Positions 23,041 through 24,168 of a DNA stretch of 64,000 nucleotides are shown piece after piece (position 1 is the stretch's first letter; each line of letters opens with the position of its first letter). Under the pieces are notes generated by a model. It saw only the letters and a list, made by a program, of their open reading frames with translations, did no database searches and was not told the DNA's origin. The stretch comes from Enterobacter vonholyi. GTDB taxonomy: Bacteria; Pseudomonadota; Gammaproteobacteria; Enterobacterales; Enterobacteriaceae. The stretch covers positions 248,001 to 312,000 of the forward strand of contig NZ_VTUC01000006.1 of NCBI RefSeq assembly GCF_008364555.1. Reading direction: 5' to 3'. The position numbers were made by a program, and so were the translations under genes.

Positions 23041-23712
23041 TCATATTGCGTGACAGCTGACGGACGCGATAATTTTATTCCCGCCCATATTGCCCATAAT
23101 CAGTTCGAGTAATTTTCGGTATTCTTCACGGGTCATCACCTCAGCCCGAATTTCGGTTTTTCCCTCAGCCTGAGCCGTGGCGGAATAAATCGCTTTCAGA
23201 CTTAACGTCAACTCTTTCGCCATATTAACGATGCTCTGCCGCACCGCATCTTCATGCTCGTCAGCACAGGTGATTTTCAGAACATAGCTTTTTTCGCCTT
23301 CATGGAGCACGGGCAGCTGATTAATCCGCTGCGCGGCTTCGCGAAGCAATATGTTGGCGCAGAGAATAATTAAGCTGGCCATGGCGGCATTCCAGAACTG
23401 GCCTAAACCACATAGCACGCCAATTCCGGCCGAGCACCACAGCGTGGCGGCGGTGTTCAGACCACGAATATTCATTCCTTCACGCATAATGACGCCTGCG
23501 CCAAGAAAGCCGATACCGGAGACGATCTGCGCTGCGATACGCCCCGGGCTATCAGGAGAAGTCGATACCGAACTTAAAATGAACACTGCGGCACCCGTGG
23601 CAACCAGTGCATTGGTACGAAGTCCGGCCATACGCTGGCGCCACTGTCTTTCCGCGCCAATAATTGCGCCCAGCAGCATCGCTGCGAGCAGATGAGAGAT
23701 ATAAGGGAACAT
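23041..23712 (-). CDS. mgtC: MgtC/SapB family membrane protein
   Basis: A 223-residue protein with four or five N-terminal membrane helices (about 1-140) and a soluble C-terminal ACT-like domain. Family motifs are AMLLGAIIGAERQWRQ, AGLRTNALVATGAA and GIGFLGAGVIMREG. In Salmonella MgtC is needed for growth in low magnesium and inside macrophages, where it lowers F1Fo-ATP synthase activity and phosphate uptake. No mgtB follows, unlike the Salmonella mgtCBR operon. The ATG at 23712 has only a weak ribosome site, and 290 bases of structured leader precede it. Confidence 0.88.
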   Translation of the reverse strand: MFPYISHLLAAMLLGAIIGAERQWRQRMAGLRTNALVATGAAVFILSSVSTSPDSPGRIAAQIVSGIGFLGAGVIMREGMNIRGLNTAATLWCSAGIGVLCGLGQFWNAAMASLIILCANILLREAAQRINQLPVLHEGEKSYVLKITCADEHEDAVRQSIVNMAKELTLSLKAIYSATAQAEGKTEIRAEVMTREEYRKLLELIMGNMGGNKIIASVSCHAI

Positions 23713-23797
23713 CAGCCTGTCGCCTGTTAACGTTATTAAATAATAAGCGTCAGTGCTTTGCTAAGCACATCATAACGCCGTTTAAATGCTAAACGTG

Positions 23798-23842
23798 TCA
23801 GGACAACGGTGGCGGAAAGAGTGAATGTGTAAACATGAACAT
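23798..23842 (-). CDS. Proline-triplet leader peptide upstream of mgtC (MgtP-like)
   Basis: A 14-codon ORF, MFMFTHSLFPPPLS, starts with ATG at 23842 and stops with TGA at 23798-23800, 85 bases before mgtC. A GGGG lies upstream as a possible ribosome site. Three consecutive proline codons stall ribosomes when EF-P or charged tRNA-Pro is scarce. In Salmonella the mgtP leader ORF uses proline codons to couple translation to transcription of mgtC. Position and content match that design; expression is not shown. Confidence 0.6.
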   Translation of the reverse strand: MFMFTHSLFPPPLS

Positions 23843-23940
23843 GCGATGCCCCACAAAATGAGTGGTTTTACTATTTCGGGATACAATCGCTTAAAGAGGA
23901 TTGCTGCCCACCCTTTCAGGTAAGCAGCGAGAAAATTGCG

Positions 23941-23979
23941 CTAGCTTACCTTCGTATCGACGATAAAATGACTTTCCAA
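23941..23979 (-). CDS. Possible first leader ORF of mgtC (TTG start)
   Basis: A 12-codon frame starting TTG at 23979 is preceded by CAGGAGA at a good spacing. Its codons cover the downstream arm of one leader stem and part of the competing stem, so a ribosome here would choose between them, like mgtM in the Salmonella leader. The rare start codon keeps confidence low. Confidence 0.35.
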   Translation of the reverse strand: MESHFIVDTKVS

Positions 23980-24007
23980 CGAAGGTCTCCTGTGAAAATT
24001 TATTGCC

Positions 24008-24035
24008 AGTATAGTCAGGCGAAATAATGAGTAAA
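24008..24035 (-). promoter_or_regulatory. Probable mgtC promoter
   Basis: On the minus strand TTTACT and TATACT are separated by 16 bases, a plausible sigma-70 -35/-10 pair placing the start near 24001. A clear PhoP box (two GTTTA repeats) was looked for upstream but only weak matches such as GTTTT and CTTTA are seen. Confidence 0.45.
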
Positions 24036-24168
24036 GCGAAAAAACAGCCTCCGTTATGAATTGTTTAAGTTCGCAAGGCATATTTTTTAAGACGTCATCT
24101 GATTTTAAAAAATACCCGCTATACTACATTTCCTTTTTTACAGGCGATAACAGACAAAGGCAGGAAGT

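Follow-up and report, generated by a model that had tools for sequence, protein, structure and literature searches.

The mgtC locus and its predicted promoter

The stretch of DNA analysed here (64,000 nucleotides, hereafter the window) carries the mgtC gene on its minus strand, and the minus-strand sequence ahead of this gene constitutes a leader of about 290 nt. The gene, the leader and the elements upstream of it are as follows.

23041-23712, minus strand: mgtC, 223 aa (NCBIfam NF011912, 388.4 bits; cut-off 255)
23713-24002, minus strand: mgtC leader RNA, 290 nt (5' end placed at 24002 from the 5-nt gap after the -10 element in Salmonella)
23893-24002, minus strand: match to RF02887 (mgtC_leader), 54.9 bits (Rfam gathering score 48), positions 1-114
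24008-24035, minus strand: candidate promoter, TTTACT (24035-24030), 16-nt spacer and TATACT (24013-24008), laid out as in Salmonella mgtC
24062-24067, minus strand: TAAACA, a perfect, reverse-oriented putative PhoP-box half-site whose end is separated from the downstream -10 element by exactly 48 nt

RF02887 was the sole Rfam RNA at curated cut-offs in the 64-kb window, and the leader had a folding z of -2.95, with 1 of 200 shuffles being as stable. An mgtA-type magnesium riboswitch was rejected, given that RF01056 (Magnesium-II) was not matched in the window and that RF02887 alone was found between 23690 and 24180 even at E values up to 1. The MgtA-type gene of the window genome, at L125 (G000:C3:110542-113136), is preceded by a Magnesium-II leader of its own, which matched RF01056 at 102.3 bits.

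In Salmonella, the mgtC promoter is reported to consist of TTTACG, a 16-nt spacer and TATAAT, with transcription starting 5 nt after the -10 element and a reverse PhoP box located 48 nt upstream of it (PMC3335776). The score of the window promoter was not significant on its own, as 3 promoter-like sites were present in a 1901-base stretch versus a shuffle mean of 2.1. A PhoP half-site matching at no fewer than 5 of 6 bases was found 48 nt from the -10 element in 29 of 43 distinct leaders, including all 10 of the window type, by a script that resolved ties in distance towards 49 nt; the window's other half-site, CCTTGC, is a poor match. Profile searches of the window genome placed the response regulator NF008078 (title PRK10816), which we take to be PhoP, and efp above their cut-offs. 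PhoP control of the predicted mgtC promoter is thus considered likely, and no more than likely owing to the poor second half-site and the tie-break towards 49 nt. The candidate promoter lies upstream of both short open reading frames (ORFs) of the leader and not downstream of them, the position that would have contradicted the initial annotation.

The description of the locus as one without mgtB was borne out by inspection, with no mgtB adjacent to the window mgtC. All 10 window-type genomes had the same MFS gene beside the leader (matched over its first 37 residues only in L118), uspF was within the fetched stretch in 9 of them, and no mgtB-type gene was seen within 1.5 kb downstream in any. 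Four other members of the genus harbored an mgtC 71-74% identical to that of the window, followed by mgtB in three. The missing neighbour is not special to the window, since mgtC also occurred without mgtB in the fetched stretch in Proteus, Morganella, Photorhabdus, one Xenorhabdus and one Winslowiella locus.

Distribution of the leader RNA

RF02887 was sought, with stricter filters, in 392 genomes of the window's family and in 14 control genomes; 42 matches were found in 41 family genomes (21 of them above the curated cut-off) and none in the controls. These matches were followed by mgtC in 25 cases and by an mgtB-type ATPase as the first gene in 16, with neither in one. The window leader type was present in 10 of 61 genus genomes. 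A leader model built in this study yielded 16 matches in 15 genomes when run on 394 genomes of the order; nine were newly read and were all of mgtC or mgtB type, the other seven being loci already read, and no new gene of another type was thus found behind the leader among these 16 matches.

A leader directly before an mgtB-type Mg ATPase, with no mgtC between, was observed at L091, L093-L095, L097-L100, L102-L104, L107-L110 and L154. Five of the 16 mgtB-type genes were scanned and fitted the Mg ATPase profile NF011702 best, below the full-length cut-off because they were fragments, and all 16 proteins were 44-54% identical to the MgtA-type protein of the window genome over the part available. 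Separately, L146 (G152:C73:29500-32500, minus strand; larger stretch L158) holds a second copy of the mgtM half with a promoter-like stretch, MDSYPELNNKAS and hairpins B and B' (described below), in a genome with another mgtM-type leader before an mgtB-type gene. This copy is followed by small ORFs (17 and about 73 aa) and, as judged by eye, an ABC-transporter-like permease; no mgtC, mgtB or LFPP peptide was found after it in the stretch read, including L158.

The comparisons below draw on 67 leaders, comprising 25 from a named mgtC search (L002-L026), 30 from the family scan and 12 from the genus scan. L083-L087 were treated as Salmonella, the mgtC PhoP-box sequences printed in PMC3335776 recurring there by eye.

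Two short open reading frames in the leader

23941-23979, minus strand: mgtM, 12 aa (MESHFIVDTKVS), UUG start, Shine-Dalgarno sequence AGGAG at 23991-23987
23798-23842, minus strand: mgtP, 14 aa (MFMFTHSLFPPPLS), proline codons at 23815-23807

The initial annotation had pointed to a TTG-started ORF with a good ribosome site, which is indeed present as mgtM (23979-23941, with AGGAG). Its stop codon lies directly behind region 2, an arm of hairpin B, and an AGGAG-N4-9-start arrangement arose in 58 of 2000 dinucleotide shuffles of the leader. The Salmonella mgtM is also UUG-started, and changing this codon to UAG is reported to lock the leader in its expressing form (PMC6908480). A short ORF starting with TTGGA and preceded by a Shine-Dalgarno sequence was detected in 61 of the 67 leaders, or 60 once the apparently spurious L026 is dropped; L003, L004, L018, L020, L021 and L025 were the misses, and the 430-nt stretch searched may be too short for some leaders. 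ATG-started versions occurred in L148, L168 and L169, the latter two sharing their mgtP with the Yersinia leader L003. All 10 window-type leaders kept mgtM, its UUG start, its Shine-Dalgarno sequence and its stop position, and the stop was in or beside region 2 in most leaders. The mgtM peptide is described as not conserved in PMC3641672; across the present leaders, M-D/E-S or something similar recurred at its start and, in many cases, A/V-S at its end, and RNA constraints could be behind these recurring ends.

The ATP response of the Salmonella leader is reported to require A44-46 (PMC3641672). The corresponding columns read CGA in the window, and AAA was present in none of the 10 window-type leaders versus 13 of 16 other leaders. 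The adenines being gone, the proposed ATP control of MgtC is not supported, as far as it would act through these published positions.

For mgtP, the 14-codon ORF ending in SLFPPPLS was found at 23842-23798 as described. When the leader was dinucleotide-shuffled 2000 times, an ATG-started ORF of 8-40 codons containing PPP arose in 2 shuffles, and one with any start in 3. LFPPP was kept in mgtP of all 10 window-type leaders, as SLFPPP or TLFPPP, and the proline codons, whose conservation in Enterobacter had been proposed as a check, differed synonymously among these close relatives. In L119, one base is missing after the proline codons by comparison with related leaders, and the resulting frameshift gives a peptide of 19 aa that retains SLFPPP.

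More widely, a short ORF with LFPP was found in 64 of the 67 leaders, the misses being L006 (LLPPG), L010 and L109. In 59 distinct mgtP rows, which were picked by LFPP so that LFPP itself is fixed in the codon count, leucine was encoded by all six of its codons and phenylalanine by both, pointing to selection on the mgtP peptide. The residue after LFPP was proline in 33 and glycine in 26 of these 59 distinct leaders, with no other residue observed. Ribosome stalling at PPP is EF-P-dependent, as it is at PPG. Proline control of the mgtC leader through its proline codons has been published, with a change of the third proline of Salmonella mgtP having no effect on the proline response (PMC3641672), as has EF-P control of mgtCBR through mgtP (PMC5299641, PMC6460261, PMC5021804). 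With the proline codons kept in 10/10 window-type leaders and efp present in the genome, the suggested proline/EF-P control of the window mgtC is plausible.

Alternative hairpins in the first half of the leader

23948-23986, minus strand: hairpin A (region 1:2), 23986-23980 with 23954-23948, a feature of the 10 window-type leaders
23919-23950, minus strand: hairpin B (region 2:3), GGUAAGC with GCUUACC, 23950-23944 with 23925-23919, proposed ON state
23903-23928, minus strand: hairpin B' (region 3:4), GCUGCUUACC with GGUGGGCAGC, 23928-23919 with 23912-23903, proposed OFF state

A, B and B' are labels of this analysis and are not matched to published stem letters. A and B overlap in GGU, whereas B and B' share the region 3 arm and are hence mutually exclusive. 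The two hairpins noted at the outset, sharing three bases, therefore exist as A and B; as a conserved exclusive pair they did not hold up, since A was paired in 39.3% of cells versus 100% for B and 99.5% for B', and B', the conserved competitor of B, had been overlooked. Of the 7 pairs of A, 6 were kept in every one of the 10 window-type leaders. As a family-wide feature A was rejected, its 39.3% (40 distinct leaders) falling within the range obtained with slid partners (30.0-47.1%).

Pairing was assessed in alignment A2 (43 leaders, 40 distinct) and in alignment A4 (45 rows, 44 distinct), in which some near-duplicates of A2 were dropped and L146-L151, L154 and L157 were added. In A2, B paired in 100% of 280 cells (slid partners, 10.5-65.3%) and B' in 99.5% of 400 cells (slid partners, 23.3-68.5%), and in none of 500 shuffles did the paired percentage or the covariation score come up to that of B or B'. 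Counts of double-changed pairs were not above shuffles (67/500 as high for B, 183/500 for B'), nor were counts of pair types (498/500 and 494/500, respectively). Pairing in A4 was 99.4% for B and 100% for B'. In this alignment, position 3 of region 2, the region 3 base that pairs with it and the alternative mate of the latter in region 4 were C-G-C in 30 rows, T-A-T in 9, T-G-C in 5 and C-G-T in 1; every row retained both alternative pairs, and the shared base was A only where both partners were T (9/9). T-A-T occurred in three lineages, namely the window clade, L154 and L172/L173 (the last two by eye), and the covarying cells stem largely from one clade. One base covarying with two alternative partners provides evolutionary support for switching.

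Constrained folding gave predictions in the same direction. With a ribosome at the mgtM stop, B had a probability of 0.00, and with the ribosome there or at codon 7, B' reached 1.00 once region 4 was made. With a ribosome at the mgtM start, B was at 0.99 in an RNA ending at region 3, and B and B' were at 0.50 and 0.49, respectively, when the RNA extended to region 4. The ribosome-free balance varied with the RNA end, favouring B' in RNAs of 100 and 290 nt and B in one of 310 nt. The constrained folds fit the genetics of Salmonella, in which loss of mgtM translation locks the expressing form. The evidence did not point to B' as an intrinsic terminator, as it was the sole terminator-like site found versus a shuffle mean of 2.0.

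Structures in the second half of the leader

23746-23779, minus strand: stem E-like hairpin of the predicted fold, 13 pairs (7 lower, 6 upper)
23715-23813, minus strand: predicted helix D*, pairing 23813-23799 (last mgtP codons) with 23726-23715 (before the mgtC start)

The E-like hairpin was paired in 98.5% of 130 cells in the 10 window-type leaders, with one double change, and this support was not above shuffles (147/500). D* displayed no covariation and was equalled by 500 of 500 shuffles, its 3' arm being too invariant for a test; these leaders hardly vary in the stretch before the mgtC start.

Salmonella-type leaders possess stem C (in the last mgtP codons), stem D (hiding the mgtC ribosome site) and stem E, and single folds of L084, L002 and L090 contained C-like and D-like stems. 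In the window-type leaders, neither the stem C motif nor GGAGG was found (both 0/10), GGAGG being present in 16 of 16 others, and stem D was not seen in single folds. Stem C was rejected for the window clade, as folds ending before stem E were weak and differed among the 10 leaders. When the proline codons were blocked in silico, D* was lost and stem E fell from 0.96 to 0.17-0.42, while the mgtC start region was unpaired at 0.24-0.30 versus 0.26. The freeing of the mgtC start by a stalled mgtP ribosome is thus not supported by constrained folding, the start region staying as paired as before, and the Salmonella model predicts the opposite of this outcome.

A further helix, formed on the minus strand by 23890-23886 and 23847-23843 (columns 167-171 and 217-221 of alignment A1), ends immediately ahead of the mgtP start. 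It reads GCGAU with AUCGC in the window and mostly ACGAU with AUCGU in Salmonella-type leaders, and 9 of 26 rows carried a double change in its outer pair.

Proposed mechanism and alternative explanations

The leader is genuine and conserved: the ORFs and their conservation, the exclusive B and B' pairs with their covariation, and the promoter spacing are all observed. The window leader is probably a PhoP-linked tandem transcription attenuator like that of Salmonella mgtCBR. Phosphorylated PhoP would start transcription at about 24002, and a ribosome would initiate mgtM at its UUG codon. On reaching the mgtM stop, the ribosome would cover region 2; B' (region 3:4) could then form, and transcription would tend to terminate, probably by way of Rho. 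With a ribosome that lagged or never started, B (region 2:3) would form in place of B' and RNA polymerase would continue. Slowing of a ribosome at Leu-Phe-Pro-Pro-Pro of mgtP, by low charged tRNA-Pro or low EF-P, may then shift folding towards mgtC expression. The signals and this second switch are predicted, and the second switch could not use the published stems C and D in the window clade.

Several alternatives were weighed against this attenuator. Only the proline/EF-P arm at mgtP and the promoter might be functional, leaving the mgtM half as a passive structure or mRNA stabiliser with no ATP sensing. The absence of AAA at 44-46 from all 10 window-type leaders, versus its presence in 13 of 16 others, would suit such a passive half, but 3 of the 16 other leaders also miss AAA, and both the 10/10 retention of mgtM with its UUG, Shine-Dalgarno sequence and stop position and the maintenance of B and B' by compensatory change make it unlikely. 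Equally improbable is a translational mgtP half in which D* takes the place of stems C and D, hiding the mgtC start until a stalled ribosome releases it directly. D* was paired in 92.7% of 110 cells in the 10 relatives (20.9-43.6% with slid partners) and had a mean pair probability of 0.98 without ribosomes, and the stretch before mgtC is nearly invariant; against this stand the missing covariation (500/500 shuffles equal), the missing GGAGG and the modelled stalled ribosome, which leaves the mgtC start region paired.

A degenerate leader, left over from an acquired mgtCB unit and no longer regulating, would account for the missing stem C motif and GGAGG, the non-adjacent mgtB and the patchy occurrence (10/61 genus genomes). 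It is nevertheless very unlikely in view of SLFPPP or TLFPPP in 10/10 leaders with synonymous changes in the proline codons and the compensatory change in B and B'. It is also conceivable, if doubtful, that the mgtM half serves as a portable cassette for attenuation, placed before mgtC, directly before mgtB-type genes and, in at least one genome, before unrelated small ORFs, with the second half rebuilt in each lineage; in the window clade, the proline codons of mgtP would have gained the mgtC start region as their pairing partner, the same stall acting via a different RNA partner and with no ATP sensing.

For the tandem attenuator, the conserved and missing parts are informative in themselves. 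Of this classic leader of a virulence gene, evolution has kept the UUG-started mgtM, the arm shared by B and B', Leu-Phe-Pro-Pro and the promoter spacing, and the window clade has dropped the ATP adenines and stems C and D, a natural variant that makes the signal read by each part of the leader testable.

Comparison with known systems

The resemblance to the Salmonella mgtCBR leader claimed in the initial annotation was supported by the RF02887 match, the UUG-started mgtM, the LFPPP-containing mgtP and the promoter before both ORFs. The two leaders share the UUG mgtM, a proline-triplet mgtP, the B/B' region, the downstream MgtC and the promoter layout with the reverse half-site 48 nt upstream of the -10 element. 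The window leader differs in having no AAA at 44-46, stem C motif, stem D or GGAGG before mgtC, as well as in a shifted mgtC start, a non-adjacent mgtB, the extra hairpin A and a longer E-like hairpin.

The leader was also claimed as one outside Salmonella, which is true of the window and is not new, since Lee and Groisman (2012) listed a proline-rich mgtP in Dickeya, Photobacterium, Serratia, Yersinia, Proteus and Photorhabdus, six other genera (PMC3641672, Fig. 1B legend). The same leader control has been predicted in Klebsiella (PMC12677791). In a partial survey of titles and abstract openings, no report was met of such a leader before mgtB or of LFPP in mgtP, and absence is not claimed from it. 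The Serratia and Yersinia loci examined here have LFPPG and an mgtB-type gene downstream, and like the window carry a proline-rich mgtP before mgtC; Proteus has LFPPP and Photorhabdus LLPPG, both without mgtB in the fetched stretch. The mgtA leader (mgtL, RF01056) is likewise a leader of a Mg transporter with proline codons, as published for Salmonella, but is another RNA family, which occurs separately in the window genome before the mgtA-type gene (102.3 bits). In summary, Mg2+-linked genes are found behind the mgtC-type leader in more than one arrangement, and the leader of the window is a previously described kind of switch whose second half has been rebuilt in the window clade.
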